Of a DNA stretch of 64,000 bases, positions 36,836-53,684 are shown in pieces. This DNA is from Stenotrophomonas sp. BIO128-Bstrain. Its GTDB lineage: Bacteria > Pseudomonadota > Gammaproteobacteria > Xanthomonadales > Xanthomonadaceae. Position numbers and translations under genes: made by a program. The notes beneath the pieces are model-generated. The model saw only the letters and a program-made list of their open reading frames with translations, was not told the DNA's origin and ran no database searches. Where the stretch lies: positions 3,731,001 through 3,795,000 of the forward strand of contig NZ_CP124620.1 of NCBI RefSeq assembly GCF_030128875.1. The letters run 5' to 3'. The stretch's first letter is position 1. Every line of letters starts with the position of its first letter.

Positions 36836-38464
36836 GTGCAACGTCGTGAGTTTCTAGCGCTGTCTGGAATGGGCCTGGCGGGCCTGGTACTGCCGCATGG
36901 CCGGCTGATCGCCGCCGAGCAGCTGCTCGAACCGGGCGATGCGGGTCGCCGGAAGGCCTTGGCCGAGGCCGCGCTTGCCGCCGCCAAACGCGCCGGTGCC
37001 AGCTACTGCGATGTGCGCATCGGCCGGTACCTCAACCAGGCGATCATCACCCGCGAGGCCAACGTCCAGAACGTCACCAACAGCGAATCCTCGGGCATCG
37101 GCATCCGGGTGATCGTCAACGGCGCCTGGGGCTTTGCCGCCACCCACCAGCAGACCCCGGCCGCGGTGCTGGCCACGGTCGAGCAGGCCGCGGCGATCGC
37201 CCGCGCCAACGCCGGCATCCAGAGCCGCCCGGTACAGCTGGCGCCGGTGACCGGCGTGGGTGACGTGAGCTGGAAGACCCCGATCCGCAAGAACGCGATG
37301 GCGGTACCGATCAAGGACAAGGTCGAGATGCTGCTGTCGCTGAATGCGGCCGCGCTCAATGCCGGCGCCGACTTCATCAACTCCACCCTGTTCCTGGTCA
37401 ACGAACAGAAGTTCTTCGCCTCCAGCGACGGCTCGTTCATCGACCAGGACGTGCACCGGATCTGGCTGCCGTTCACCGCCACCGCGATCGACAAGGCCAG
37501 CGGCAAGTTCCGTACGCGCGCCGGGCTGTCCTCGCCGATGGGCATGGGCTACGAATTCCTCGATGGCGACGCGCGCGGCAAGATCGCGTTGCCGGGCGGC
37601 GTGGTCGCCTACCGCGATTCCTACGACCCTGTCGAAGATGCCATTGCTGCCGCCCGCCACGCCCGTGAAAAGCTCAAGGCGCCGTCGGTCAAGCCGGGCA
37701 AGTACGATCTGGTGCTGGACCCGTCCAACCTGTTCCTGACCATCCATGAGAACGTCGGCCACCCGCTGGAGCTGGACCGCGTGCTCGGCTACGAAGCCAA
37801 CTACGCCGGCACCAGCTTCGCCACGCTGGACAAGCGCGAGGCGGGCTTCCGCTGGGGCAGCGACATCGTCAACTTCTTCGCCGACAAGACCGCCCCGGGC
37901 AGCCTGGGCGCGGTGGGCTACGACGATGAAGGCGTGAAAACCAAGCGCTGGGACCTGGTCAAGGACGGCATCCTGGTCAACTACCAGGCCACCCGCGATG
38001 AGGTGCACCTCCTCGGCGAGAAGGAAAGCCACGGCTGCAGCTACGCCGATTCGTGGTCCAGCGTGCAGTTCCAGCGCATGGCCAACGTGTCACTGGCGCC
38101 GGGCAAGGCCCCGCTGAGCGTGGCCGACATGATCAAGAACGTGGAGAACGGCATCTACATCCACGGCCGCGGCTCGTACTCGATCGACCAGCAGCGCTTC
38201 AACGCGCAGTTCGGCGGCCAGCTGTACTACCAGATCAAGAACGGTGAGATCACCGGCATGGTCGAGGATGCCGCCTACCAGATCCGCACGCCGGAGTTCT
38301 GGAATGCCTGCAGCGCGATCTGCGATGAGCGCGATTTCCGCTTCGGCGGCTCGTTCTTCGATGGCAAGGGCCAGCCGGGCCAGGTCTCGGCGGTCTCGCA
38401 TGGCTCGGCGACCACGCGCTTTGATGGCATCAACATCATCAACACCGCACGCAGCCTGGGATGA
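36836..38464 (+). CDS. Tat-exported TldD-family metalloprotease 1
   Basis: 542 aa, about 60 longer than cytosolic E. coli TldD because of an N-terminal twin-arginine leader (QRREFLALSG then hydrophobic GLAGLVLPHG). The TldD zinc motif HENVGH is at residues 304-309 (HExxxH) within LTIHENVGHPLELDR. FRWGSD, GAVGYDDEGVKTKRWDLVKDG and NGIYIHGRGSYSIDQQRF follow. It is predicted to be a peptidase exported folded to the periplasm, working with a TldE-like partner (40252). Starts with GTG. It is about two-thirds or more identical to its neighbour at 38597 by eye. Confidence 0.92.
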   Translation: MQRREFLALSGMGLAGLVLPHGRLIAAEQLLEPGDAGRRKALAEAALAAAKRAGASYCDVRIGRYLNQAIITREANVQNVTNSESSGIGIRVIVNGAWGFAATHQQTPAAVLATVEQAAAIARANAGIQSRPVQLAPVTGVGDVSWKTPIRKNAMAVPIKDKVEMLLSLNAAALNAGADFINSTLFLVNEQKFFASSDGSFIDQDVHRIWLPFTATAIDKASGKFRTRAGLSSPMGMGYEFLDGDARGKIALPGGVVAYRDSYDPVEDAIAAARHAREKLKAPSVKPGKYDLVLDPSNLFLTIHENVGHPLELDRVLGYEANYAGTSFATLDKREAGFRWGSDIVNFFADKTAPGSLGAVGYDDEGVKTKRWDLVKDGILVNYQATRDEVHLLGEKESHGCSYADSWSSVQFQRMANVSLAPGKAPLSVADMIKNVENGIYIHGRGSYSIDQQRFNAQFGGQLYYQIKNGEITGMVEDAAYQIRTPEFWNACSAICDERDFRFGGSFFDGKGQPGQVSAVSHGSATTRFDGINIINTARSLG

Positions 38465-38596
38465 GCCCGTCCCTGCTCCGTGCCGAATGTCACTACCGCG
38501 GCGCACGCATGGCCGCAAGAATCGGCTGTGCCGCCGCGGCGGTCGCCCTGATGTCGCTGTTTCCCTGCCACCCCCACACCGACGTGGAGAGCTGCC

Positions 38597-40231
38597 TTGC
38601 AAAGACGTGACTTTCTCGCCCTGACCGGGCTTACCGCTGGCGGACTGATCGTGCCGTCGTTCTTCGGCAAGGTCATTGCCGCCGAGCAACTGCAGAGCAG
38701 CCTCGACCCGGCCCTGAAAAAGCGCCTGGCCGACGCCGCCCTGGCCGCTGCGCGCCAGGCGGGCGCGACCTACTGCGATGTGCGTATCGGCCGCTACCTG
38801 CGCCAGTACGTGATCACCCGCGAGGACAAGGTCCAGAACGTGGTGAACACCGAATCGACCGGCGTGGGCATCCGCGTGATCGTCAACGGCGCCTGGGGCT
38901 TTGCCGCCACCAACCAGCTCGGCACCACCGACGTGGCCCGCGCCGCACAGCAGGCCGCGGCGATCGCCAAGGCCAACGCCGGCGTGCAGACCGCCCCGGT
39001 GCAGCTGGCTGCCGCGCCCGGCGTGGGTGAGGTGTCCTGGCGCACCCCGATCCGCAAGAACGCGATGGACGTGCCGATCAAGGAAAAGGTCGAGCTGCTG
39101 CTGGACGTCAATGCAGGCGCGATGGGCGCCGGCGCCAGCTTCGTCAACTCGATGCTGTTCCTGGTCAACGAGCAGAAGTACTTCGCCTCCACCGACGGCT
39201 CCTACATCGACCAGGACGTGCACCGCATCTGGGCACCGATGACGGTCACCGCCATCGACAAGAGCACCGGCAAGTTCCGCACCCGCTCGGGGCTGTCCTC
39301 GCCGATGGGCCTGGGCTACGAGTACCTCGATGGCGTCGGCACCGGCAAGGCGGTCTCGCCCAACGGCGTGGTCAACTACCGCAACTCCTACGACATGAAG
39401 GCCGATGCGATCGCCGCGGCCAGGCAGGCGCAGGAGAAGCTCAAGGCCCCGTCGGTGAAGCCGGGCAAGTACGACCTGATCCTGGATCCGTCGCACACCT
39501 GGCTGACCATCCACGAGTCGGTCGGCCATCCGCTGGAACTGGACCGCGTCCTCGGCTACGAAGCCAACTACGCCGGCACCAGCTTCGCGACGCTGGACAA
39601 GCGCGAGCAGCATTTCCAGTACGGCAGCGACAAGGTCAACATCTTCGCCGACAAGACCCAGCCGGGCAGCCTCGGCGCGGTCGGCTACGACGATGAAGGC
39701 GTCAAGACCAAGCGCTGGGACCTGATCAGCGAAGGCAAGCTGGTGGATTACCAGACCATCCGCGACCAGGCCCACATCCTCGGCAAGACCGAGTCCGATG
39801 GTTGCTGCTATGCCGATTCGTGGTCCAGCGTGCAGTTCCAGCGCATGGCCAACGTCTCCATGGCACCGGGCAAGACCAAGCTGAGCGTGGCCGACATGAT
39901 CAAGGACGTCGAGAACGGCATCTACATCATCGGCGACGGCTCGTTCTCCATCGATCAGCAGCGGTACAACGCGCAGTTCGGTGGGCAGCTGTTCTATGAA
40001 ATCAAGAACGGCCAGATCACCCGCATGCTCGAGGACGTGGCCTACCAGATCCGCACGCCGGAGTTCTGGAATGCCTGCACCGCCGTGGCCGACGAAAGCG
40101 ACTACCGCCTGGGCGGCTCGTTCTTCGACGGCAAGGGCCAGCCGGGCCAGGTCTCGGCGGTCTCGCACGGTTCGTCCACCGCGCGCTTCAACGGCATCAA
40201 CGTCATCAACACCGCGCGCAGCCTCGGCTGA
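38597..40231 (+). CDS. Tat-exported TldD-family metalloprotease 2
   Basis: 544 aa, a close paralogue of the 36836 gene. It has the Tat leader QRRDFLALTGLTAGG and the zinc motif HESVGH at 306-311. A Cys pair GCCYADSWSS replaces GCSYADSWSS of copy 1. The start is TTG (GGAGAGCTGCC upstream), so both copies use non-ATG starts directly before QRR. A 132-bp interval after copy 1 is bridged by a 49-codon open frame. The product probably pairs with the TldE-like protein encoded 20 bp downstream. Confidence 0.92.
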   Translation: MQRRDFLALTGLTAGGLIVPSFFGKVIAAEQLQSSLDPALKKRLADAALAAARQAGATYCDVRIGRYLRQYVITREDKVQNVVNTESTGVGIRVIVNGAWGFAATNQLGTTDVARAAQQAAAIAKANAGVQTAPVQLAAAPGVGEVSWRTPIRKNAMDVPIKEKVELLLDVNAGAMGAGASFVNSMLFLVNEQKYFASTDGSYIDQDVHRIWAPMTVTAIDKSTGKFRTRSGLSSPMGLGYEYLDGVGTGKAVSPNGVVNYRNSYDMKADAIAAARQAQEKLKAPSVKPGKYDLILDPSHTWLTIHESVGHPLELDRVLGYEANYAGTSFATLDKREQHFQYGSDKVNIFADKTQPGSLGAVGYDDEGVKTKRWDLISEGKLVDYQTIRDQAHILGKTESDGCCYADSWSSVQFQRMANVSMAPGKTKLSVADMIKDVENGIYIIGDGSFSIDQQRYNAQFGGQLFYEIKNGQITRMLEDVAYQIRTPEFWNACTAVADESDYRLGGSFFDGKGQPGQVSAVSHGSSTARFNGINVINTARSLG

Positions 40232-40251
40232 CCGGTCAGGAGCCCCAATCC

Positions 40252-41586
40252 ATGAGTATCTTCACCGAAGCCCAGGCCAAGGCCATCCTCGACAAGGTCA
40301 TCGCGCTCTCCAAGGCCGATGAATGCACTGCCGTGCTGGCCGGCTCGATCGACGGCAACATCCGTTTCGCACTGAACAATGTCTCCACCAGCGGCATCGT
40401 CGACAACACCGAACTGGCCGTCACGGTCGCCTTCGGCAAGCGCGTCGGCACCGCCTCGATCAACGAATTCGACGATGCCGCGCTGGAACGCGTGGTGCGC
40501 CGCGCCGAGGATCTGGCCCGCCTGGCCCCGGAGAACCCGGAGTTCCTGCCGGCGATCGGCAAGCAGACCTACCGGCCCAGCCCGACCTTCAGCGAATCCA
40601 CTGCGGCGATCGACCCGGCCTTCCGCGCCAAGGTCGCCGCCGACTCGATCGCGCCGTGCCGTGGCAACGGTCTGATCGCGGCCGGCTTCCTGGAAGACGG
40701 CCAGAGCTTCTACGCCACCGCCAACAGCAACGGCAACTTCGGTTACCAGCGCGGCACCAACTTCGACTACACCTGCACCGTGCGCACCGAAGACGGCCGC
40801 GGCTCGGGCTGGGTGGGTCGCAACCTCAAGGATGCCGCCGATTTCAAGGCCGACCAGGACATCCGCATCGCCATGCGCAAGGCCACCGAATCGGCCGAGG
40901 CCAAGGCGCTGGAGCCGGGCAAGTACACGGTGATCCTGGAGCCGGCGGCCGCGGCCGGCCTGATCAGCTTCATGATGAACTTCTTCGATGCGCGCTCGGC
41001 CGATGAAGGCCGCAGCTTCCTGTCCAGGAAGGGCGGCGGCAACAAGCTGGGCGAACAGGTCTACGACCCGCGCGTGACCATGGTCGCCGACCCGTGGCAC
41101 CCCGAAGCCGCCGTGCTGCCGTGGGACAACGAAGGCCAGCCGCGCGAGAAGCTGGACATCATCAAGGACGGCAAGATCGCCAACCTCAACTACTCGCGCT
41201 TCTGGGCGCAGAAGCAGGGCAAGACCGCCAACGCGCGCCCGGGCAACCTGCTGATGTCCGGTGGCGACAAGAGCACTGCCGAGCTGGTCCGTGGCACCCA
41301 GAAGGGCATCCTGGTCACGCGCACCTGGTACATCCGCATGGTCGATCCGCAGACCGTGCTGCTGACCGGCCTGACCCGCGATGGCACCTTCTACATCGAG
41401 AACGGCCAGATCAAGCACCCGGTGAAGAACTTCCGCTTCAACGAGTCGCCGGTGATCATGCTCAACAACATCGAAGAGCTGGGCAAGCCGGTGCGTGTGG
41501 CCGGTGACGAATCCAGCCTGGTGATGATGATCCCGCCGATGAAACTGCGCGATTTCACCTTCACCTCGTTGTCCGACGCGGTCTGA
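40252..41586 (+). CDS. TldE/PmbA-like partner protein
   Basis: 444 aa. It has the TldD/PmbA fold without an HExxxH motif: SADECTAVLAGSIDGNIRFALN, TASINEFDDAALERVV at the N-terminus, then GLISFMMNFFDARSADEGRSFL, GNKLGEQVYDPRVTMVADP and NEGQPREKLDIIKDGKI in the C-terminal beta-rich domain. In the TldD/TldE heterodimer TldE shapes the channel and TldD holds the zinc. No signal peptide is visible here (MSIFTEAQ), although the two TldD copies have Tat leaders; it could ride along as a hitchhiker or stay cytosolic. CAGGAG precedes the ATG. Confidence 0.9.
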   Translation: MSIFTEAQAKAILDKVIALSKADECTAVLAGSIDGNIRFALNNVSTSGIVDNTELAVTVAFGKRVGTASINEFDDAALERVVRRAEDLARLAPENPEFLPAIGKQTYRPSPTFSESTAAIDPAFRAKVAADSIAPCRGNGLIAAGFLEDGQSFYATANSNGNFGYQRGTNFDYTCTVRTEDGRGSGWVGRNLKDAADFKADQDIRIAMRKATESAEAKALEPGKYTVILEPAAAAGLISFMMNFFDARSADEGRSFLSRKGGGNKLGEQVYDPRVTMVADPWHPEAAVLPWDNEGQPREKLDIIKDGKIANLNYSRFWAQKQGKTANARPGNLLMSGGDKSTAELVRGTQKGILVTRTWYIRMVDPQTVLLTGLTRDGTFYIENGQIKHPVKNFRFNESPVIMLNNIEELGKPVRVAGDESSLVMMIPPMKLRDFTFTSLSDAV

Positions 41587-41653
41587 TGAACGGTCGTGAC
41601 GGCCACTGGCCGTCTCTTCGTCTGGCCGGTCGCTTCCGGGAACGTGCGCGGCG

Positions 41654-42355
41654 ATGAACCGTGCACAGTTCCTGCGGCTGATGCTGGGCAGTGCCGCGTT
41701 CGCGGCCTTGCCCGCGCCGGCGCGCGCCCAGGCCGGGCGGTACGACTTCTGGTTCACCCGCCTCAAGTACGACTCCGGCGACTGGGACGTGGACGCGCGC
41801 ATGCCGTCCAACGTGATCACCTCGCTGATCGATTACACCACCCTGCGCGTTGACCCGACAGAGCACGTGATCGCGCTGTCCGATCCGCGCATGCTGGAGG
41901 CACCGTTCTGCTACCTGGCCGGGCACAAGCTGGTCGAGTTCAATGCCGCCGAGCGGCAGAACTTCGTGCGTTACGTGCGCAATGGCGGCTTCGTGTTCGT
42001 CGATGACTGCAACCACGATATCGATGGTCTGTTCGCGAAGTCCTTCGAAGCACAGATGGCCAAGCTGTTCGGGCCGAAGGCGCTGAACAAGCTGCCCAAC
42101 AACCACGCGCTCTACCGCAGTTTCTTCCGCTTCCCCGATGGCCCGCCGGCCACCGGGTTCGAGCTCAATGGCTGGGGCGATGATCTGGTCCACGATTACC
42201 TCAAGGGCATCCAGATCGATGGCCGCCTCGGCGTGCTCTACAGCAACAAGGATTACGGGTGCGAGTGGGACTACGACTGGCGCAACAAGCGCTTCCTGGC
42301 CGAAGACAACACCCGTTTTGCGGTCAACATCGTGATGTATGCCTTGAACAGCTGA
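41654..42355 (+). CDS. Exported DUF4159 protein
   Basis: 233 aa. The leader NRAQFLRLMLGSAAFAALPAPARA resembles a Tat signal with one Arg changed (NRxQFL). The DUF4159 domain follows: FWFTRLKYDSGDWDVD, MPSNVITSLIDYTTLRVDP, PFCYLAGHKLVEF, VRNGGFVFVDDCNHDID (glutamine-amidotransferase-like fold) and the VVLYSN-like LGVLYSNKDYG. In many bacteria this domain is fused behind a BatA-type membrane domain in MoxR/DUF58 operons; here it is a separate gene before moxR. Confidence 0.88.
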   Translation: MNRAQFLRLMLGSAAFAALPAPARAQAGRYDFWFTRLKYDSGDWDVDARMPSNVITSLIDYTTLRVDPTEHVIALSDPRMLEAPFCYLAGHKLVEFNAAERQNFVRYVRNGGFVFVDDCNHDIDGLFAKSFEAQMAKLFGPKALNKLPNNHALYRSFFRFPDGPPATGFELNGWGDDLVHDYLKGIQIDGRLGVLYSNKDYGCEWDYDWRNKRFLAEDNTRFAVNIVMYALNS

Positions 42356-42373
42356 GCTTCTTCCTGCTTTTTC

Positions 42374-42396
42374 AGCCACGCATGGCGTGGCTCTAC
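42374..42396 (-). repeat. SMAG repeat inside the TldD-MoxR cluster
   Basis: AGCCACGCATGGCGTGGCTCTAC, the same subtype as the copy at 11317. It lies between the DUF4159 and moxR genes and could mark a transcript processing point. Confidence 0.8.
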
Positions 42397-42416
42397 GCCG
42401 ATCCTGCGAGTGCCTT

Positions 42417-43400
42417 ATGACGACCGACCGCCTTGATGCCCTTCTTCCCAAACTGCAGCAGCTGCGCGGTGCGTTGGCCCAGGCCGTGGTCGGCCAGCAC
42501 GCGGTGGTCGAACAGCTGCTGATCGGCCTGCTGGCCGGCGGCCACTGCCTGCTCGAGGGCGCCCCCGGGCTGGGCAAGACCCTGCTGGTGCGCTCGCTAG
42601 GCCAGGCCTTGGAGCTGCAGTTCCGGCGCGTGCAGTTCACGCCCGATCTGATGCCCAGCGACATCCTCGGTACCGAGCTGCTGGAAGAGGACCACGGCAC
42701 CGGGCACCGTCACTTCCGGTTCCAGAAGGGCCCGATCTTCACCAACCTGCTGCTGGCCGACGAGCTCAACCGCACCCCGCCCAAGACCCAGGCCGCACTG
42801 CTGGAGGCGATGCAGGAGCGCACCGTCAGCTACGCCGGCACCACCTATGCGCTACCGGCGCCGTTCTTCGTGCTGGCCACGCAGAACCCGATCGAACAGG
42901 CCGGCACCTACCCGCTACCCGAAGCCCAGCTGGACCGCTTCCTGCTGCACGTGCGGGTGGATTACCCCACCGAACAGGAAGAGCGCGACATCCTGCTGCA
43001 GACCACCGGCAGCGCCAACGGCAGCGTCCCCAAGGTGATGGAGGCTGACGAGGTCCTGGCGCTGCAGTCAGCCGTGCGCGAGGTCCACATCAGCGACGAC
43101 GTACTCACCTGGATCACCCGCCTGGTGCGTGCCAGCCGCCCGGGCAGCGACGCACCGGCGGCGGTGAACCAGTGGATCAAGTGGGGCGCCGGCCCGCGTG
43201 CCGGGCAATCGCTGGTGCTGGCGGCCAAGGCGCGCGCGCTGCTGCAGGGCCGCTTCGCGGCCACCCGCGAGGACGTGCAGGCGCTGGCGGCACCGGTGAT
43301 GCGTCACCGCCTGCTGCTGTCCTTCGCTGCCGAGGCCGAGCAGAAGAGCGCCGACGACGTGGTCGCCGCGCTGCTGCAGGCCGTGCCGTTCCCGGGTTGA
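42417..43400 (+). CDS. MoxR-family AAA+ ATPase
   Basis: 327 aa. Walker A GAPGLGKT at 48-55, Walker [17 protein letters not shown] at 110-125, the MoxR signature [25 protein letters not shown], sensor [22 protein letters not shown], and lid [15 protein letters not shown] region ([19 protein letters not shown]). MoxR ATPases act as chaperones for metal or cofactor enzymes and partner with vWA/DUF58 proteins. ATG 42417 is chosen; an open frame extends 30 bases upstream into the repeat. Confidence 0.94.
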
Positions 43401-43410
43401 TCCGCACACC

Positions 43411-44307
43411 GTGAGCCGCAACGCACCGATCGCGATCCCCGCCGATGTCCGCAGCCGCCTGAAGGCGCTGCGGCTGCTGCCACGGCGTGCACGCGGCGCG
43501 CACGGCATCGGCCAGCACGCCAGCCGCAGCCGCGGCGCCGGGCTGGAGTTCGCGCAGTACCGCGCCTATGAACCTGGCGATGAACTGCGCCAGATCGACT
43601 GGAAGCTCTACGCGCGCTCGGACCGCTTCTTCGTGCGTGAATCCGAACGCGAAAGCCCGATCACGGCCTGGGTGCTGATCGATGCGACCGCCTCGGCGCG
43701 CCAGAGCGACCGTGCGCGACCGGACTGGTCGCGCCTGGACCACCTCTGCGCCACCGCCGCCTGCCTGGTCGAACTGGCCCTGCAGCAAAGCGACCGCTTC
43801 GGCGTGATCGCCATCGGCGGCGAGGGCGTGCAACTGGTCCCCGCCGGGCACGGCCCGCGCCAGCGTGACCGCGTGCACCTGCTGCTGCGCCAACTCCTGG
43901 CCAGCGGCACGTGGCCGCCGGTCACTTCCCTGGCCCCGGTCTGGGAGCGGGTGCAGGCCGGCGACCTGCTGGTCGCGCTGGGCGACGGTTTCGACGAGGG
44001 CGGCATCGTGCTGCTGGAACGGCTGGCCGCCGCCCGCCGCGAGGTGCTGCACCTGCAGGTACTGACCGCCGAAGAGCGCGATTTCCCGTTCACCGACGGC
44101 CACCGCTTCCGCGATCCGGAAACCGGCGATGAGCTGCTGGGCGATGGCCGTGCGATCCGTGCCGAATACCTGGCCCGTTTCGATACCGCCCAGCGCGCGT
44201 TGCAGGCGCGGCTGCAGAGCAGCGGCATCGTGCATGCCACCGGCTATCTCGACCAGCCGCTGGATCAGCCGCTGCGGGCGCTGCTCGGTGCCGGAGGCGG
44301 CGCGTGA
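43411..44307 (+). CDS. DUF58 protein
   Basis: 298 aa. The DUF58 signature is at about 42-76: SRGAGLEFAQYRAYEPGDELRQ, then IDWKLYARSDRFFVRESERE. A vWA-like region follows (AWVLIDATASARQ, lacking a strict DxSxS). DUF58 proteins are the regular partner of MoxR ATPases. Starts with GTG 10 bp after moxR; its end overlaps the next start (GTGA). Confidence 0.93.
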   Translation: MSRNAPIAIPADVRSRLKALRLLPRRARGAHGIGQHASRSRGAGLEFAQYRAYEPGDELRQIDWKLYARSDRFFVRESERESPITAWVLIDATASARQSDRARPDWSRLDHLCATAACLVELALQQSDRFGVIAIGGEGVQLVPAGHGPRQRDRVHLLLRQLLASGTWPPVTSLAPVWERVQAGDLLVALGDGFDEGGIVLLERLAAARREVLHLQVLTAEERDFPFTDGHRFRDPETGDELLGDGRAIRAEYLARFDTAQRALQARLQSSGIVHATGYLDQPLDQPLRALLGAGGGA

Positions 44308-45422
44308 GCCTGCTGTTTCCGCTCGGACTGCTGGCACTGGCCGCCTGGCTGGTCCCGCTGCTGATCCACCTGGCGCGGCGGCATCAGTACGCGCCACTCG
44401 ACTTCGCCGCGCTGCGCTGGCTGCAGGCCCGGATCCGGCCGCACCAGAAGATCCGCTTCGACGCGTGGCCGCTGCTGCTGGTGCGGCTGCTGCTGCTGGC
44501 TGCACTGGCCCTGTTGCTGGCGCGGCCGGTGCTGTACGGTGGCGCCGCCGACATCCACCCGGTCACGGTGGTCGCCCCTGGTCTGGACGGTACGGCCCTG
44601 CGTGGCCAGGACGCGAAGGGAGATTGGCGCTGGCTGGCTCCGGGCTTCCCCGCACTGGCCGATGCCGCCCCGGCGACCGCTTCCGCGCTGTCCAGCCTGC
44701 TGCGTGAGCTGGACCAGACACTGCCTGCCGGCGCACCGCTGACGGTGTACGTGCCCGACCCGATGCCCGGACTGGATGGCGAGCGCCCGCGCCTGTCGCG
44801 TGCCGTGGATTGGCGGCCGGTGCCGTTGGCGCCGGCCAGCACGCGCACCGCCGCACCGCCGGTGCTGCAGGTCGGTGGCGAGATCGCAGAAGGCGAGCAG
44901 CGCGTGCTGGCCGCGCTGCAGCGTGCCTGGTCCAACCAGGCGTTGTCTCCTGCCCGCGGTGCCGGTACCGCCCCCGATGCCGGGCAGACCGGCGTGTGGC
45001 TCGCCGCTGCGCCGCTGCCTGCTGCCTGGCAGGCGTGGGTGCACCAGGGCGGCAGCGTACTGGTCGCGCCCGGTGCTGCGGAGGCCGGCTGGATGCCCAT
45101 CCTGCGCGATGCAGAGGGTGCAGTGGTGCTGGAACAGCGGTCCGAAGGACAGGGTCGCCTGCTGCGCTTCGCGTCGCCGCTGACACCGACGGCCCTGCCG
45201 GTGCTGCGCGATCCCGGTTTCCCGCGCCAGTTGCTGGCCGTCCTCGCCGCACCCGCCCCGCCGACCCTCGCGGCGGCAGCGACACAGCAGCCGCTGCGCG
45301 GCGGCGCCACGCCGCTGCCCGCACCGCGCGAGCTGAGCCCCTGGCTGCTGGCGCTGATCGTGCTGCTGTTCGCGCTGGAACGGGCAATGGCGACCTCACC
45401 GCGCCGCGGAGCAGGCGCATGA
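44304..45422 (+). CDS. BatA-type membrane protein
   Basis: 372 aa. The N-terminal BatA double-membrane motif is clear: SLLFPLGLLALAAWLVPLLIHL, a loop with ARRHQYAPLDFAALRWL and HQKIRFDAWPLLLVRLLLLAALALLLARPVL. The periplasmic part is Ala/Pro-rich with a poorly conserved vWA-like region, and a C-terminal helix follows (LSPWLLALIVLLFALERAMAT). It is translationally coupled at both ends (GTGA with DUF58, ATGA with the next gene). Confidence 0.88.
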   Translation: MSLLFPLGLLALAAWLVPLLIHLARRHQYAPLDFAALRWLQARIRPHQKIRFDAWPLLLVRLLLLAALALLLARPVLYGGAADIHPVTVVAPGLDGTALRGQDAKGDWRWLAPGFPALADAAPATASALSSLLRELDQTLPAGAPLTVYVPDPMPGLDGERPRLSRAVDWRPVPLAPASTRTAAPPVLQVGGEIAEGEQRVLAALQRAWSNQALSPARGAGTAPDAGQTGVWLAAAPLPAAWQAWVHQGGSVLVAPGAAEAGWMPILRDAEGAVVLEQRSEGQGRLLRFASPLTPTALPVLRDPGFPRQLLAVLAAPAPPTLAAAATQQPLRGGATPLPAPRELSPWLLALIVLLFALERAMATSPRRGAGA

Positions 45423-47590
45423 ACGCTGCCATCCAGCACGCCTGGCAGCGCGCGCGCCGGCGCCAGTGGTGGATCACCACCCTGCTCGCGGTGCCGGTCG
45501 CGTCGGCGATCAGCGCGGTGGCGTGGCGGCTGGCCGGCTTCAACGCGGCTACGGTGGTCCTGCTGTTGACGTTGCTGGTCAGCGCCGGCGTGGCGACCTG
45601 GCGCGCACGTGGTCTGGATCGCCAATGGCTGGTCCGCCGGCTGAACGACCACCCGGTCGCACAGGACAGTGCCGACCTGCTGTTTGCCCTACCGGCGGCA
45701 TTGAACCCGTTGCAGCAGCGGCAGCGCGCACATGTCGCCGCCGCCCTGCAGTCGCGCATGCCCGATCTGCGGTCGCGCTGGCCGGGCCGGTGGCTGCTGG
45801 CCTCGGTGATCACGTCGGTGGTGGTGATGGCGCTTGCGCTGGGCTGGCCGCGCGGCCCGGACGCGGCGCCCCTGTTGCCGGGCACGGCGGCACCGCCGGC
45901 CACACCTGCGCAGCCCCCGCAGCTGCGTTCCGCCCGGCTGGAGATCACCGCCCCGGCCTACACCGGGCAGGCCGCGCGGGTGCAGAGCACGCTGGACGGC
46001 AAGGTCCCGCAGGACAGCCGCCTGCACTGGTCGCTGCGCTTCTCGGCGCAACCGCAGGCCGCTGCGCTCCAGTTCCACGATGGCCAGCGCATCGCGCTGC
46101 AACGCGATGGCGACCAATGGACCACGCAGTGGACCGCCACGCGTCCGGCGCTGTACCGCGTGATCACCGAGCCTGCCCTGCGCGACACCCGCCTGTACCG
46201 GCTCGATGTGGTGCCCGATCGCCCGCCCGTGGTGCGCGTGATCGCTCCGGACCGCAGTCTCGTGCTGGGGACGCCCGGCCAACGCCAGTGGCCGCTGCAG
46301 TTCGAGGCTACCGACGACTACGGCGTGGTCGCCACGGCACAGTTGAAGGTCACCCTGGCCCAGGGCAGCGGCGAGAACATCACCTTCCGCGAGCAGACCT
46401 TCAACCTCGCCGGCACCGGACCGGCGACGCAGCGGCGCTTCGCGCGCACGCTCGATCTCGCCGCGCTGGGCGCCACCGAAGGCAACGATGTGATCGCGCA
46501 GTTGACCGTGCGCGACACCCACACGCCCGGCGCGCAGAGCGCCCAGAGCAGCAGCGTGATCCTGCGCCTGCCCAGCGCAGCGGAGATCCAGGGCACCGAC
46601 ATGGAGGGCATGGTCAAGAAGACCCTGCCCGCGTATTTCCGCAGCCAGCGCCAGATCATCATCGACGCTGAAGCGCTGATCAAACAGCGTCGCCAGCTGC
46701 CGGCAGAGGAATTCGTGAAGCGTGCCGATGCGATCGGCGTGGACCAGCGGATCCTGCGCCTGCGCTATGGCCAGTTCCTCGGCGAGGAAAGCGAAGGCGG
46801 GGCCAAGCCACCGCCGACCAGCGATGCCCTGCCGACCAGTGACACACCGGCGGCCGCGCACGATGACGATCACGATCACGATGGCGACCATGCCAGGACC
46901 CAGGCGCAGGCCGGCCACGACGACCATGATCATGGCGCGCCGACCGATGGCAGCGCCCCGGTGTTCGGCAGCGCCACCGACGTGCTCTCCGAATACGGCC
47001 ATACCCACGATCACGCCGAGGCCGCCACCCTGCTCGATCCCAAGACGCGCGCCACGCTGAAGGCGGCGCTCGATCAGATGTGGTCGTCGGAAGGCGAGCT
47101 GCGCCAGGGCCAGCCCGAGCGTGCCCTGCCCTACGCCTACAAGGCGCTGGGCTTCATCAAGGAAGTGCAGCAGGCCGAGCGCATCTACCTGGCACGGGTC
47201 GGCCCGGAACTGCCGCCGATCGACGAGAGCCGACGCATGAGCGGCGATCGCGCCGACCTGGCCAGCCGCACCTTGCCACTGCGTGCGCTGGAGGCACCCG
47301 ACCAGGCCATCGTGCAGGTCTGGCAGCAGCTGGCCGATCCGGCCAGCGCGCCGGATCTGGATGCACTGACCCACTGGCTGCGACGCAATGAAGCGCGCCT
47401 GCCGGACCCGCTGAGCCTGGCCGCCGCCATCGAAACACTGCGCATCACCCCGGACTGCGCCAACTGCCATCAGGCCCTGCGCGCGCAGCTGTGGCGTGCG
47501 CTGCTGCGACCACTGCCGCAGGTCGCCCGGCGCAACGCCGCCGATGCCATGGGTCAGCGCTACCTGGATGCACTGGAGGCCACCCCGTGA
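45419..47590 (+). CDS. DUF4175-like membrane protein with His-rich runs and a CxxCH motif
   Basis: 723 aa. Two N-terminal helices (WWITTLLAVPVASAISAVAW; ATVVLLLTLLVSAGVATW), a third near 127-142, then a large periplasmic domain with beta repeats (LEITAPAYTGQAARVQSTLDG; QFEATDDYGVVATAQLKVTL), the pattern of DUF4175 proteins. From about 478 come DDDHDHDGDHA, HDDHDHGAP and GHTHDHAEA, likely metal-binding. Near the C-terminus DCANCHQAL has the CxxCH form of a c-type haem site. Overlaps the neighbours on both sides (ATGA, GTGA). The function is unknown. Confidence 0.82.
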   Translation: MNAAIQHAWQRARRRQWWITTLLAVPVASAISAVAWRLAGFNAATVVLLLTLLVSAGVATWRARGLDRQWLVRRLNDHPVAQDSADLLFALPAALNPLQQRQRAHVAAALQSRMPDLRSRWPGRWLLASVITSVVVMALALGWPRGPDAAPLLPGTAAPPATPAQPPQLRSARLEITAPAYTGQAARVQSTLDGKVPQDSRLHWSLRFSAQPQAAALQFHDGQRIALQRDGDQWTTQWTATRPALYRVITEPALRDTRLYRLDVVPDRPPVVRVIAPDRSLVLGTPGQRQWPLQFEATDDYGVVATAQLKVTLAQGSGENITFREQTFNLAGTGPATQRRFARTLDLAALGATEGNDVIAQLTVRDTHTPGAQSAQSSSVILRLPSAAEIQGTDMEGMVKKTLPAYFRSQRQIIIDAEALIKQRRQLPAEEFVKRADAIGVDQRILRLRYGQFLGEESEGGAKPPPTSDALPTSDTPAAAHDDDHDHDGDHARTQAQAGHDDHDHGAPTDGSAPVFGSATDVLSEYGHTHDHAEAATLLDPKTRATLKAALDQMWSSEGELRQGQPERALPYAYKALGFIKEVQQAERIYLARVGPELPPIDESRRMSGDRADLASRTLPLRALEAPDQAIVQVWQQLADPASAPDLDALTHWLRRNEARLPDPLSLAAAIETLRITPDCANCHQALRAQLWRALLRPLPQVARRNAADAMGQRYLDALEATP

Positions 47591-49416
47591 GCGACCCGCG
47601 CTGGACCCTGATCGCGCTGTTCGCCGTGCTGCTGCTGAGCAGCGCGCGTCTGTGCTGGCAGCAATGGCGTGGACCGGCGCGGGCACCCGGTGTGTTCGCC
47701 AGCCTGCTGGTGTTGCAGGCCGTGGCGACCGTGCTGCTCTACCTGACCCTGGTGCCACCGATGCAGCGCGTGGCCGGTGGCCAGCTGACCGTGCTGACTG
47801 GCGCGGCCGATCAGGTGCGCTGGTCAGCGGCGCCGGGCGAAACCGTGGTCGCACTGCCGGAAGCGACGAAAGCAGCAGACGCCCTCGCCGCACCCGACCT
47901 GGCCACCGTGTTGCGCCAGCATCCCGGTCCCACCTCCCTTCGGTTGATCGGCGATGGCCTGTCGGCCCGCGATCGCGATGCCGCGCTGCCCCGTGGCGTG
48001 CGTATCGAATGGCCCAGCGCACCACAGGGCTGGATCGCACTGCAGCCGCCACCGGTTGCTGCGCCCGGTGCGGTGTTCACCGTCAACGCGCGTGCGCAGG
48101 GCGTGCCGAATGCACGCGCCGAGCTGGTGGACCCGGCCGGGCTGGTGGTTGACCGCGCAATGCCCGGGGCCGATGGTCGCGTGCAGCTTGATGGTGTCGC
48201 GCGCGTGCCGGGGCAGAGCACGTTCCGTCTGCGCCTGCTGGATGCCGGGCAGCACGTGGTCGATACGCTGGAGGTACCGGTGGACACTGTGGGCGCGGCA
48301 GCGCCGCGGCTGCTGATCCTCGCCGGTGCGCCGGGGCCCGAGTTGAAGTACCTGCGTCGCTGGGCGACCGATGCGGGGCTGGCCGTACAAGCGCACGCCC
48401 ATGCCGGCGGTGGGGTGTCGCTCGGCGATGCGCCGGTCGCGCTGACCGCGGCGACGCTGGCGGCGACGGATGCCGTGCTGCTCGATGAGCGCAGCCTGGG
48501 CACCCTGTCCGCTGCCCAGCGCAGCACGCTGCAGCAGGCCGCCCGTAGCGGGCTGGGCGTTCTCGTCCGCACCGGTGGCCCGCTTGGCGACAGCGCCCGC
48601 CAGACGCTACGCAGCTGGGGCCTGTCCGTCACCGGCAGCAACCAGGCCGCGCCCCTGTCACTGCCGGCCGATGCCGATGCCGCGTTGCTGCAGGCGCGTC
48701 GTGGCCCGCAACGACCTGCAGCGGACACCACCACCTACATCGACGAAGCCGACATGGCCTCGCACCAGGCCGCGCTGCCGGTGCTGGAGCGACTGGGTGT
48801 GACGGTCAACGACGCGACACCGCTGCTGCACGATGACAAGGGCAACGCGATCGGCGGCTATCGCCCGCTGGGCCGGGGCCGTGTTGCGCTGCTGCCGGTC
48901 ACCGACAGCTATCGACTGGTGCTGGCCGGTCGCGACGATCGCCACGCCGAGCTGTGGAGCAGCGTGCTGGCCAGCGTGGCCCGCCCGATTGCTGCCGCGC
49001 AGGCGCCCCGGATCGACGCGGTCACCCCATGGGCGGGCGAGCGTATGGCGCTGTGCCAGCTGCAGGAGGCCGCGCAGGTGCGCGCACCGGATGGCGCGCA
49101 CATTCCCCTGCGGATCGATCCAGCCAGCGGTGCCGAGCGGTGCGCCGGCTATTGGCCCGACCAGGCTGGCTGGCATCAGCTGCAGCAGGGTGAGCGCAGC
49201 CAGGCGTTCTACGTATTCGATCCGGCCAAGGCACGCCCGCTGCATCGCCAGCAGCTGCGCGACGCGACCGCGCAGCGCCTGGCGGCGGGCGCCGCCACGA
49301 CGTCGGCCGGGGTGATCGAAACGCCGGGGGCCCGTTGGCCGTGGTTGCTGGGCTTCGTGCTTGCCGCCGGGCTGCTGTGGTGGATGGAGCGGCGGCGGGG
49401 GGCGAGGCCCGCTTGA
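47587..49416 (+). CDS. Large membrane-anchored protein, class I glutamine-amidotransferase-like
   Basis: 609 aa. Two N-terminal helices (WTLIALFAVLLLSSARLCW; FASLLVLQAVATVLLYLTLV) and one C-terminal helix (WPWLLGFVLAAGLLWW) with a basic end. The periplasmic part has a carboxypeptidase-regulatory-like beta domain (VFTVNARAQGVPNARAELVDPAGLV) and a region PRLLILAGAPGPELKYLRRWATDAG, then SGLGVLVRTGGPLGD, like the GATase1-like proteins found at the end of MoxR/BatA operons. No catalytic Cys is evident. GTG start coupled to the previous stop; last gene of the cluster. Confidence 0.8.
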   Translation: MSDPRWTLIALFAVLLLSSARLCWQQWRGPARAPGVFASLLVLQAVATVLLYLTLVPPMQRVAGGQLTVLTGAADQVRWSAAPGETVVALPEATKAADALAAPDLATVLRQHPGPTSLRLIGDGLSARDRDAALPRGVRIEWPSAPQGWIALQPPPVAAPGAVFTVNARAQGVPNARAELVDPAGLVVDRAMPGADGRVQLDGVARVPGQSTFRLRLLDAGQHVVDTLEVPVDTVGAAAPRLLILAGAPGPELKYLRRWATDAGLAVQAHAHAGGGVSLGDAPVALTAATLAATDAVLLDERSLGTLSAAQRSTLQQAARSGLGVLVRTGGPLGDSARQTLRSWGLSVTGSNQAAPLSLPADADAALLQARRGPQRPAADTTTYIDEADMASHQAALPVLERLGVTVNDATPLLHDDKGNAIGGYRPLGRGRVALLPVTDSYRLVLAGRDDRHAELWSSVLASVARPIAAAQAPRIDAVTPWAGERMALCQLQEAAQVRAPDGAHIPLRIDPASGAERCAGYWPDQAGWHQLQQGERSQAFYVFDPAKARPLHRQQLRDATAQRLAAGAATTSAGVIETPGARWPWLLGFVLAAGLLWWMERRRGARPA

Positions 49417-49929: not shown

Positions 49930-50100
49930 GTTGGTTGCGGGCTGGCCTCAAAGCATACGGAGGCCGGCGTCAGGTTTCGTTGATGGCAGCTGTCCGGCCG
50001 GCGCGGCGGGCACTGAACCATTCACCGGCCCGCATCGCGATGTCTCAGACATTGAGACGCGGTCATGTTTCCATAGCGTCCTTTGCAGACCGTTGTGACC

Positions 50101-52581
50101 ATGGCTTACGAACTCGCCAAGCGGACCGAGGACGCCGAACGCCGCCTCGCCACCACCGATGGGCTGCCCTCGCGCGATGGTGCGCTGCTGACCGCACGCC
50201 TGCAGCGCCGCTACAACGACCGCATCACCGGCAGCTTCACGATTCCCGCCCGCGAGGGCCAGTACGCGCCGATCCCGGCCGATGTGCCCGCCGCGCTGGT
50301 CAATGCGCTGAAGGCGCGCGGCATCGAGCAGCTTTACAGCCACCAGGCGCAGGCCTGGGAGGCCAGCCAGCGCGGCGAGCACGTGGCCATCGTCACCCCC
50401 ACCGCCAGCGGCAAGTCGCTGTGCTACACCCTGCCCGTGGTCAGCGCGGCGATGCAGGGCAAGGCCAAGGCGCTGTACCTTTTCCCGACCAAGGCGCTGG
50501 CCCAGGACCAGGTGGCCGAGCTGCTGGAGCTCAATCGCGCCGGCGACCTGGGCGTGAAAGCCTTCACCTTCGATGGCGATACGCCAGGCGATGCGCGCCA
50601 GGCGATCCGCCTGCACGGCGACATCGTGGTCTCCAACCCGGACATGCTGCACCAGGCGATCCTGCCGCATCACACCAAATGGGCGCAGTTCTTCGAGAAC
50701 CTGCGCTATGTGGTGATCGATGAGGTGCACACCTATCGCGGCGTGTTCGGCAGCCACGTTACCAACGTGCTGCGCCGGCTCAAGCGGATCTGCGCGTTCT
50801 ACGGGGTGGAGCCGCAGTTCATCCTGTGCTCGGCGACCATCGGCAATCCGCAGGCGCATGCCGAGGCATTGATTGAAGCGCCGGTCACCGCGATCACCGA
50901 ATCCGGTGCGCCCAGCGGGCCCAAGCACGTGCTGCTGTGGAACCCGCCGGTGGTCAACGCCGATCTCGGCCTGCGTGCGTCCGCCCGCTCGCAGAGCAAC
51001 CGCATTGCCCGCATCGCGATCAAATCCGGCCTGAAGACGCTGATCTTCGCGCAGAGCCGGTTGATGGTCGAAGTACTGACCAAGTACCTCAAGGACATCT
51101 TCGACCACGACCCGCGCAAGCCGGCCCGCATCCGCGCCTACCGCGGCGGCTACCTGCCGACCGAACGGCGCGAGACCGAGCGGGCGATGCGCGCCGGGCA
51201 CATCGACGGCATCGTCAGCACCTCGGCGCTGGAACTGGGCGTGGATATCGGCAGCCTGGACGTGGTGATCCTCAACGGCTACCCGGGCAGCGTCGCCGCG
51301 ACCTGGCAGCGCTTCGGCCGCGCCGGTCGTCGCCAGCAGCCCGCGCTGGGGGTGATGGTGGCCAGCTCGCAGCCGCTGGACCAGTACGTGGTGCGGCATC
51401 CGGACTTCTTCGCCGAGGCCTCGCCCGAGCATGCGCGCATCGCACCGGACCAGCCGCTGATCCTGTTCGACCACATCCGCTGCGCCGCCTTCGAGCTGCC
51501 CTTCCTGGCCGGCGATCCGTTCGGGCCGATCGACCCGCTGGTGTTCCTCGAAGCGCTGGCCGAAACCGAGGTCGTGCATCGCGAGGGCGACCGCTGGGAG
51601 TGGATCGCCGACAGCTACCCGGCCAACGCGGTCAGCCTGCGCTCGGTCGCCGACGGCAACTTCGTGGTGGTGGACCGCAGCGACGGCAAGCAGCAGATCA
51701 TCGCCGAGGTGGATTACTCCGCCGCCGCGCTGACGCTGTACGAAGGTGCCATCCACATGGTGCAGTCCACGCCCTACCAGGTGGAGCGGCTGGACTGGGA
51801 AGGCCGCAAGGCCTATGTCACGCGTACCCACGTGGACTACTACACCGACAGCATCGACTTCACCAAGCTCAAGGTGCTGGACCGCTTCGATGGCTGCATT
51901 GCCGGGCGCGGCGATTCGCACCACGGCGAAGTGCACGTGGTGCGCCGCGTGGCCGGCTACAAGAAGATCCGCTACTACACCCATGAAAACATCGGCTACG
52001 GCCCGGTCAACCTGCCCGACCAGGAGCTGCACACCACGGCGGTGTGGTGGCAGTTGCCGCAGGCGCTGCTGCTGACCGCGTTCGACAGCAAGCAGGAAGC
52101 GCTGGACGGCTTCCTCGGCGCGGCGTATGCGCTGCACATCGTCGCCACGGTGGCGGTGATGGCCGATGCGCGCGACCTGCAGAAGGCGGTCGGCAATGGC
52201 GATGGCGCGTGGTTCGCGGTGGCCGACCAGAGTGGCCGCGGGCAGCTGCGGGGCGCCGAGTTCGATGCCAGCGCGATCGAGCTGCAGCAGCAGTTCGTGC
52301 CGACGGTGTATCTGTACGACAACTTCCCCGGCGGTGTGGGCCTGAGCGAGCCGCTGTGGCTGCGCCAGGCGGAGCTGCTGCTGCGCGCGCGCGAGCTGGT
52401 GCAGGGCTGCGACTGCAAGGCCGGCTGCCCCGCCTGCGTGGGGCCGGTCCTGGCCGGCCAGGAAGACGATGCCACCACGCCCAAGGCACTGGCCCTGAAG
52501 GTGCTGGCGCTGTTCGACAGCGCGGCGTTGCCGTCTGCCGCCGAGCGTGAGCGCCAGAGCGCCGAGATGGTCGCCCCGTGA
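50101..52581 (+). CDS. mrfA: DEAD/DEAH-box helicase MrfA (YprA-type)
   Basis: 826 aa. Walker A TPTASGKSLCYTLP, DEVH box VVIDEVHTYRGVFG, motif III CSATIGN, and the second RecA domain with STSALELGVDIGSLD and WQRFGRAGRRQQP. A MrfA C-terminal domain ends in a four-Cys cluster (GCDCKAGCPACVGP). In Bacillus MrfA and MrfB excise mitomycin-C adducts independently of UvrABC. ATG 50101 (MAYELAK) is used; a TTG 18 bases upstream is possible. Its stop overlaps the mrfB start, an almost certain operon. Confidence 0.94.
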   Translation: MAYELAKRTEDAERRLATTDGLPSRDGALLTARLQRRYNDRITGSFTIPAREGQYAPIPADVPAALVNALKARGIEQLYSHQAQAWEASQRGEHVAIVTPTASGKSLCYTLPVVSAAMQGKAKALYLFPTKALAQDQVAELLELNRAGDLGVKAFTFDGDTPGDARQAIRLHGDIVVSNPDMLHQAILPHHTKWAQFFENLRYVVIDEVHTYRGVFGSHVTNVLRRLKRICAFYGVEPQFILCSATIGNPQAHAEALIEAPVTAITESGAPSGPKHVLLWNPPVVNADLGLRASARSQSNRIARIAIKSGLKTLIFAQSRLMVEVLTKYLKDIFDHDPRKPARIRAYRGGYLPTERRETERAMRAGHIDGIVSTSALELGVDIGSLDVVILNGYPGSVAATWQRFGRAGRRQQPALGVMVASSQPLDQYVVRHPDFFAEASPEHARIAPDQPLILFDHIRCAAFELPFLAGDPFGPIDPLVFLEALAETEVVHREGDRWEWIADSYPANAVSLRSVADGNFVVVDRSDGKQQIIAEVDYSAAALTLYEGAIHMVQSTPYQVERLDWEGRKAYVTRTHVDYYTDSIDFTKLKVLDRFDGCIAGRGDSHHGEVHVVRRVAGYKKIRYYTHENIGYGPVNLPDQELHTTAVWWQLPQALLLTAFDSKQEALDGFLGAAYALHIVATVAVMADARDLQKAVGNGDGAWFAVADQSGRGQLRGAEFDASAIELQQQFVPTVYLYDNFPGGVGLSEPLWLRQAELLLRARELVQGCDCKAGCPACVGPVLAGQEDDATTPKALALKVLALFDSAALPSAAERERQSAEMVAP

Positions 52582-53684
52582 GCCTGAGCCTGGACAAGCT
52601 GCGCCTGCTGCGCCGGCAGGCCGGTGATGCAACGCCCGCGCCGGCCCGTGATCCGTCCATCGCCACTGCGGGCCGATCCGATGCGGGTGACACCATCGCT
52701 ACCGGCGGCGCCGCCCCCGCGCCCCTCCCGGCCGCCGCCAACGACGCGCGCGCGCGCACGCCCGCGCCCGCCTCCGTGTTCGGCTGGGTGGAGCAGGAAA
52801 TCCGCCACAAGCCCACCGGTGAGGCCGCACGCCATACCGCACCGGCAGCGCCTGCCCTCCCGGCGCCCGCGCTGCGCAAGCCCGAGATCGGTGGCCTGCG
52901 CCGGCTGCTCGGCCTGCGCGAGCGGAGCCTCAGCACCGCCCACCCGCGTGAGGACGCCAAGGACCGCCATGTACCGGGCGAGGAGATCGCGCCGGGCCTG
53001 TTCCTGATCGAGTCGTTCGTCGCCCAGGCCATTCCCACCGAGCCCTTGTCGCTCGCCTTCGCCAAGCGCGAGGGCGAACAGGTGCAGCCACAGGACCTGC
53101 TGTTCTTCGATACCGAAACCACTGGCCTGGCCGGCGGTACCGGCACCCGCGCCTTCATGATCGGCGCCGCGGACTGGCACGCCCATCCCGAGCGCGGCGA
53201 TGGCCTGCGCATCCGCCAGCTGCTGATGACCACGATGGCCGCCGAAACCGCGATGCTGCGCGAGTTCGCCGGGTGGCTGCGGCCGAGCACGGTGTTCTCC
53301 AGCTACAACGGCCGCTGCTACGACGCCCCGCTGCTCAAGACCCGCTACCGTTTGGCGCGGCAGCGCTGCCCGATCACCCCGCTGGATCACGTCGACCTGC
53401 TGTTCCCGACCCGCCGCCGCTATCGCGGTACCTGGGAAAACTGCCGGCTGGCCACGATCGAACGCCAGCTGCTGCAGATCGTGCGCGAAGACGACCTGCC
53501 CGGCTCGGAAGCCCCGGCGGCGTGGTTGAACTACCTGCGCGGCGGCAGCGCGGTGAACCTGCGCCGCGTGGCCGAGCACAACCACCAGGACGTGGTGACC
53601 CTGGCGCTGTTGATGCGACGGCTGGTGGCCGAGGAACAGCGTGACCGGGAGACGTTGGCGCTGCAGGCCATTGACGCGGTGTAA
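52578..53684 (+). CDS. mrfB: Exonuclease MrfB (YprB-type, RNase H-like)
   Basis: 368 aa. A Pro/Ala-rich, low-complexity N-terminus (about 1-100), then a DEDD exonuclease domain: DLLFFDTETTGLAGGTGT (ExoI), a segment SSYNGRCYDAPLLKTRYRL (ExoII with Asp), LDHVDLLFPTRRRYRG and the ExoIII region RRVAEHNHQDVVTLALL (HxxxD). This is the nuclease partner of MrfA in mitomycin-C repair. GTG start inside the mrfA stop (GTGA). Confidence 0.92.
   Translation: MSLSLDKLRLLRRQAGDATPAPARDPSIATAGRSDAGDTIATGGAAPAPLPAAANDARARTPAPASVFGWVEQEIRHKPTGEAARHTAPAAPALPAPALRKPEIGGLRRLLGLRERSLSTAHPREDAKDRHVPGEEIAPGLFLIESFVAQAIPTEPLSLAFAKREGEQVQPQDLLFFDTETTGLAGGTGTRAFMIGAADWHAHPERGDGLRIRQLLMTTMAAETAMLREFAGWLRPSTVFSSYNGRCYDAPLLKTRYRLARQRCPITPLDHVDLLFPTRRRYRGTWENCRLATIERQLLQIVREDDLPGSEAPAAWLNYLRGGSAVNLRRVAEHNHQDVVTLALLMRRLVAEEQRDRETLALQAIDAV

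Follow-up and report, generated by a model that had tools for sequence, protein, structure and literature searches.

The 64,000-nucleotide stretch of the Stenotrophomonas sp. BIO128-Bstrain genome analysed here (the window; NZ_CP124620.1, positions 3,731,001 to 3,795,000; host genome 4.49 Mb in one contig) contains a block of nine genes, all on the + strand (36836-49416). These encode two TldD-type metalloproteases (TldD1 and TldD2), a TldE-like partner, a DUF4159 protein, a MoxR ATPase, a DUF58 protein, a BatA-type protein and two further membrane proteins. Comparison of related loci gives good support for the block being one unit, and the predicted export of TldD by the twin-arginine translocation (Tat) pathway is supported at the level of sequence. 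We hypothesize, with somewhat less than even confidence, that the block forms one envelope system, in which MoxR, DUF58 and the membrane proteins mature or operate the Tat-exported TldD/TldE. The TldD/TldE complex known in most detail is a protease of the cytosol; for most MoxR/DUF58 modules, we know of no assigned client.

Joint inheritance was assessed in 150 genomes of the order, using cut-offs of E<1e-200 for TldD, E<=1e-30 for TldE, E<1e-100 for DUF4159 and >390 bits for MoxR. At these cut-offs, all four proteins mark one and the same set of 29 genomes, while the other 121 have none of them; the next-best MoxR scored 344 bits. Outside the 29, eight genomes gave weak TldD matches only (<=158 bits) and one (G039) a weak DUF4159 match only. 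In one genome (G389), TldD lies at the very end of a contig other than that holding the rest of the block. Presence varies within genera g1, g7 and g253 and families f4, f11 and f12, corresponding to at least about six joint gains or losses if those genera and families are monophyletic. A chance figure of 10^-31 for the co-occurrence ignores relatedness, and was not used. Of 37 genus members compared, counting the window's own genome, only G012 and G029 have no DUF4159. In these and in G398, the block is absent and other genes occupy its place, with the downstream MrfA helicase and small gene present; the upstream DUF938 gene is present in G398, but a look for it in the stretches of G012 and G029 found none. 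In G433, MrfA was the only one of the flanking genes found.

More distant loci were then collected. The class sample (276 genomes) gave three strong matches, all within the genus, and 35 weak ones. The phylum sample (299 genomes) gave 12 matches at E<=1e-55: one is a leaderless relative (G606), and the other eleven belong to the system type, G473 and G708 among them lying outside the class. A scan of named genomes confirmed TldD in at least 583 of 597 stretches, sometimes two per genome, and the 79 loci kept span Stenotrophomonas, Xanthomonas, Lysobacter, Luteimonas, Sphingobium, Erythrobacter, Brevundimonas, Nevskia, Microbulbifer and others. Of 105 loci in total (85 new and 20 from the order; the profiles were built from the window and L066-L085, making those 20 circular in this tally), 81 carry the full block with its gene order unchanged. 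A further 23 are cut by the end of the stretch, with <=85 bases left on the side of the missing gene. The sole exception is L126 (G606, assigned to Methylocystis on a 99% match), a leaderless TldD-TldE pair alone, with 12 kb beyond it lacking the module. The nine same-strand genes of the initial annotation are borne out by open reading frames (ORFs) and, except for the last two, by Pfam matches, and their arrangement is not due to chance.

The 81 complete blocks differ in TldD number: 38 have a single TldD, 29 the order TldD-TldD-TldE, 11 the order TldD-TldE-TldD and 3 other duplications. The TldD-TldE-TldD order was seen in L150, L152, L154, L159, L165, L199 (Lysobacter), L200, L201, L205 (Microbulbifer), indicating that TldD copies were rearranged around TldE. 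Two Brevundimonas loci (L169 and L174) have one more TldD of this type, encoded on the other strand right after the last gene and cut by the stretch end.

The block proteins also diverged in parallel. Pairwise distances of eight of them correlate with r of 0.80-0.96 across 68 loci (76 before eight near-identical Stenotrophomonas loci were dropped). In all eight, the alphaproteobacterial copies are closer to those of Xanthomonadaceae (MoxR 78%, TldD 77%) than the copies of other gammaproteobacteria are (62% and 69%), the three groups being chosen subsets with L156 assigned by similarity. The tree of TldD nests G473 and the named alphaproteobacteria within a group of Xanthomonadaceae TldDs (support 98) and places G708 elsewhere; this and other tree results come from a short search with Shimodaira-Hasegawa-like approximate likelihood-ratio (SH-aLRT) support only. 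The whole block has probably moved into alphaproteobacteria. Plasmid carriage was considered and rejected: 18 plasmid records with TldD relatives reached at best 41% identity.

A single origin and movement of the whole block would also be expected of a mobile operon, in which a TldD/TldE pair and a MoxR module were joined once and merely hitchhike together, and internal promoters would fit into the 61-132 bp gaps of the first half. We regard such a fortuitous union as quite improbable, given the joint presence across patchy genomes, which differs inside three genera of the order sample, and the lack of any split copy in the 105 loci besides leaderless L126 and contig-split G389. The claim of the initial annotation that these genes form a single system holds up in its main test: the TldD and MoxR blocks do not separate in the relatives examined, but occur in the same 29 genomes, in fixed order, with parallel divergence.

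TldD1, TldD2 and TldE each contain three PmbA_TldD domains above the Pfam cut-off (PF01523, PF19290, PF19289). The translations show HExxxH in TldD1 and TldD2, and not in TldE. In TldD1, the first His codon of HExxxH is at 37745 and the Asp replacing the Cys ligand is encoded at 38360-38362; in TldD2, His306 is encoded at 39512 and Asp511 at 40127-40129. Both scored below the NCBIfam cut-offs for E. coli-type TldD equivalogs (121 and 129 bits against 635; 71 and 70 against 513). The twin-arginine leaders noted at the outset on both TldDs were confirmed by translation (MQRREFLALSG... and MQRRDFLALTG...), and TatC is encoded in the same genome.

Among 160 TldDs examined for the leader pattern RRx[F/V/I/L/M], a script found it in 154 and re-inspection in three more (L140, L145 and L204). 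The other three missed by the script are L126, which is truly leaderless, and the copies of L169 and L174, which are cut on the contig side. The pattern is missing in 8 of 120 close database relatives, and those eight look truncated or mis-started. If the leaders were unused, the complex would be cytosolic, in keeping with a leaderless TldE and with RA instead of RR in the DUF4159 leader of the window. This is very improbable, since the leader is present in 157 of 157 system TldDs with a readable N-terminus, against a pattern match in 1 of 120 outgroup proteins and in 1 of the 20 TldDs of L086-L105, there without a hydrophobic run.

The metal site differs along the same divide. The system TldDs retain HExxxH, and 157 of the 157 in which the third ligand could be read have Asp there (160 less L151 and L191, which are cut before the ligand, and Cys-type L126; the Asp of L171 was read by eye), as do 120 of 120 close database relatives. 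In an alignment, Asp occupied the position of the E. coli-type Cys ligand in 28 of 28 system TldDs. The leaderless relatives have Cys: 20 of 20 TldDs of L086-L105 (18 from the class sample, one from the order and one the genome's own canonical TldD), L126, a Nonomuraea protein (L206) and 120 of 120 proteins nearest the last two. The metal ligands of E. coli TldD are His262, His267 and Cys454, and Asp can replace Cys, Gemmatimonas being named (PMC5810440). Together, the leaders and the Cys-to-Asp change support the earlier suggestion that the protease side is periplasmic, as far as can be judged from sequence. Leaderless TldD types (L086-L103, L105, L126 and L206) are about 30-42% like the exported TldD, and the stretches examined around them showed no MoxR module.

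The TldE start is conserved without a leader, and a Tat-like motif near the profile start occurs in 2 of 101 copies. Because Tat can carry leaderless partners (PMC4273604), we infer that TldE would be carried out with TldD as a hitchhiker. The DUF4159 protein (Pfam match 185 bits) has a Tat-like leader with RA (window 41654-41700). Of 95 copies read by script, 48 have RR, 7 KR or RK, 27 RA and 13 other motifs (e.g. TRSEFLRL). The RA form may be a degenerate Tat signal or the mark of a passenger.

Pfam identified MoxR (AAA_3, 211 bits), DUF58 (101 bits), which we take to be of the von Willebrand factor A (vWA) type, and the BatA N-terminus (37 bits). Walker B and the DUF58 motif D-x-S/T-x-S are each present in 68 of 68 loci, as befits a MoxR/DUF58 module, and the KT of MoxR Walker A likewise in 68 of 68 (GK in 60, AK in 8). 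The ATPase motifs and the metal-ion-dependent adhesion site thus appear largely intact. The gene after BatA encodes a His-rich protein with three N-terminal hydrophobic segments, a beta-rich middle and a low-confidence His-rich loop, which would be largely periplasmic. GHxH occurs in 68 of 68 such proteins, and 62 of 68 also have both Cys of a CxxC that follows later in the chain. Heme attachment by the CANCH of the window protein was rejected, CxxCH being present in 2 of 68 only. Among the Foldseek matches listed for this protein, most were immunoglobulin-like or complement-type chains, at query-normalised TM-scores <=0.14. Its earlier label, DUF4175-like, found no Pfam match at E<=1 (45419..47590), and the GATase-like label of the last protein fared no better, its sole Pfam match being ThuA at E=0.14. 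A role in anti-phage defence was also rejected: PADLOC gave weak AAA matches to MoxR only (<=18.9 bits), and none for the other eight proteins.

The initial annotation proposed that the MoxR complex prepares, and TldD trims, an unknown exported substrate, and a gene for it was sought beside the block. No gene outside the block recurs broadly: families of ORFs of >=90 aa reach at most five loci across clades (the clade labels being author-assigned). A precursor of a ribosomally synthesized and post-translationally modified peptide, encoded beside the protease, could have escaped detection if very short or fast-evolving. Among the 12 largest clusters of small ORFs within 2 kb, one has 20 loci and the others 4 each. 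The former lies on the DUF938 side in 19 Xanthomonadaceae and one Microbulbifer, and the latter come from three Microbulbifer and L122. The proposal therefore received no direct support from the neighbourhood of the block, the genome elsewhere not having been searched. The lack of a broadly recurring neighbour suggests that the block's own soluble exported proteins are likely clients of the ATPase; such an internal client has at least the same likelihood as an external substrate.

The substrate-preparing alternative has the MoxR complex extract or remodel an envelope protein whose gene lies elsewhere, for trimming or degradation by the exported TldD/TldE. This fits joint inheritance equally well, TldD/TldE binds peptides sequence-independently (PMC5810440) and MoxR has been called chaperone-like (PMC7688217). 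We consider it possible but doubtful in light of the neighbour search, and tentatively favour maturation or activation of TldD/TldE, because no neighbour gene recurs broadly and because the mxa operon is built likewise, with genes for an exported enzyme ahead of mxaR, mxaS and others.

The block looks like one already noted. An RNA-seq study of S. maltophilia biofilms mentions a not-yet-characterised operon of nine locus tags, including two TldD and one MoxR-like ATPase (PMC7688217); by its description, it looks like the same nine genes, treated there as one operon. Some of its genes were lower in biofilm in all seven isolates, and two X. campestris tldD genes, putative counterparts of those in the block, were up 2.3- and 2.5-fold in an hpaR1 mutant (PMC6430473). 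Both observations would fit peptide scavenging or detoxification, in which periplasmic TldD/TldE destroys incoming peptides, antimicrobial or misfolded, under the control of MoxR/BatA as a regulator linked to stress. This is unlikely, as the module looks elaborate for a promiscuous peptidase. Among open-licence PMC papers, most of them judged from their listing alone, we found no description of a Tat-exported TldD and nothing pairing DUF4159 with MoxR.

In the maturation mechanism, TldD would fold in the cytosol as a metalloprotease and form an E. coli-like pair with TldE. Tat would then export this complex in its folded state, the leaderless TldE travelling with TldD. Asp in place of the Cys ligand might give a thermolysin-like site proof against oxidation damage. 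Cytosolic MoxR and DUF58 could then act via the BatA-type, His-rich and last membrane proteins on the exported TldD/TldE, and perhaps on DUF4159, by maturing, metal loading or switching on, as mxa genes do for methanol dehydrogenase. Once active, the chamber would trim or degrade unfolded periplasmic peptides. Export itself, the co-transport of TldE, the Asp as a metal ligand, MoxR-driven maturation and the peptide nature of the substrate are presumed in this scheme. A narrower version is possible but doubtful: a dedicated AAA+/vWA maturase (MoxR, DUF58 and the His-rich membrane protein) that loads or activates a Tat-exported heterodimer, with a Cys-to-Asp switch on leaving the cytosol and TldE as a hitchhiker.

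Several points weigh against this mechanism. The exported TldDs make up a single clade of the tree (36 of the 63 rows, support 98). Leader, Asp and module thus arose together on one branch, and their correlation amounts to one event. Some MoxR is present in 148 of the 150 order genomes, mostly without this TldD, so MoxR modules serve other purposes too. Metal could enter before translocation, since Tat substrates cross the membrane folded, and no dedicated maturase would then be needed. The His-rich loop is variable and may be mere composition. Some TldD/TldE are reportedly N-deacetylases, going by the title of a review, so the activity need not be proteolysis. Electron transfer has been named as a possible role of MxaR/MxaS (PMC9728263).

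If the mechanism holds, the switch from Cys to Asp that came with export would clearly exemplify how a metal site can adapt to periplasmic conditions. The widespread, fixed-order cassette gives a MoxR module an obvious candidate client and a concrete assay, and its co-inherited genes make a new cell-envelope partnership between a protease and an energy-driven helper module testable.

Table 1. Features of the nine-gene block, in window coordinates.
Feature	Coordinates	Strand	Basis
TldD1, Tat-leader TldD-type metalloprotease, 542 aa	36836..38464	+	Pfam PF01523/PF19290/PF19289; translation, alignment
TldD1 predicted twin-arginine leader (putative cleavage site)	36836..36916	+	Translation; leader pattern
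TldD2, second Tat-leader TldD, 544 aa	38597..40231	+	Pfam; translation, alignment
TldD2 predicted twin-arginine leader (putative cleavage site)	38597..38683	+	Translation, alignment
TldE-like partner, 444 aa, no HExxxH, no leader	40252..41586	+	Pfam; conserved leaderless start
DUF4159 protein, predicted class I amidotransferase-like fold, RA in place of RR in a Tat-like leader	41654..42355	+	Pfam; predicted fold
MoxR AAA+ ATPase; ATG start chosen, longest ORF from 42387	42417..43400	+	Pfam AAA_3
DUF58 protein, DxTxS motif	43411..44307	+	Pfam
BatA-type protein; hydrophobic segments: two N-terminal, one near C-terminus	44304..45422	+	Pfam
His-rich membrane protein (three N-terminal hydrophobic segments, GHxH), no Pfam family	45419..47590	+	Sequence
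His/Asp-rich loop of His-rich membrane protein, ends GHTHD	46859..47011	+	Sequence
Last gene product: fast-evolving, two hydrophobic segments at the N-terminus, only weakly ThuA-like	47587..49416	+	Sequence

The gaps of the first half are 132 bp (TldD1/TldD2), 20 bp (TldD2/TldE), 67 bp (TldE/DUF4159) and 61 bp (DUF4159/MoxR). The last five genes are tightly coupled, as initially described, by a 10-bp gap between MoxR and DUF58 and three 4-bp overlaps at 44304, 45419 and 47587. Promoter and terminator scans were uninformative (sigma-70, 0 against 0.8 expected; terminators, 6 against 4.9 expected). TldD2 is 99% identical to TldD2 of Stenotrophomonas rhizophila strain USBA GBX 843. A canonical TldD/TldE pair is also present in the same genome, separately, at 617 kb. 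Immediately 3' of the block is an MrfA-like helicase and RNase_H_2 gene pair (50083-53684, +), and a BlaR1-type M56 membrane peptidase gene (220 bits) is nearby (54149-56014, -).

Comparison with E. coli TldD/TldE, the microcin B17 and CcdA protease (PDB 5nj5), shows the same three PmbA_TldD domains, HExxxH in TldD only and a separate TldE. The window's TldD scores only 59.8 bits over the chain, however, and the block differs in its Tat leaders, Asp for Cys454 and MoxR linkage. The pairs of Methylocystis-type L126, Nonomuraea L206 and gammaproteobacterial L086-L103 and L105 share the HE..GH..E(L/I)DR neighbourhood, with TldE close in all but L097, but have no visible leader, a Cys ligand and no DUF4159 or MoxR in the stretches examined. 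Two MoxR-DUF58 modules (G050:C28 and G039:C7) resemble the other half, with MoxR at 426 and 408 bits on the system profile, DUF58, and DUF4159 about 5.5 kb off; their DUF4159 scores are just 45 and 44 bits, and no TldD/TldE was found within the 19.5-kb stretch. Bat aerotolerance operons contain MoxR, DUF58 and a BatA-type N-terminus, as in the block, and to our knowledge no TldD or DUF4159.

The mxa/mox operon of methylotrophs, in which MxaR is MoxR and MxaS presumably a DUF58 protein, is alike in gene order only: exported metalloenzyme genes are followed by MoxR, DUF58 and further genes. Its order is mxaF-J-G-I-R-S-A-C-K-L-D (PMC6414531). The enzyme differs, being a quinoprotein dehydrogenase; TldD and DUF4159 have no counterpart, and the later genes can be likened by order only. 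The mxa genes are credited with a role in metal (calcium) insertion into methanol dehydrogenase, the kind of role that MoxR and its partners might have for the exported TldD/TldE.

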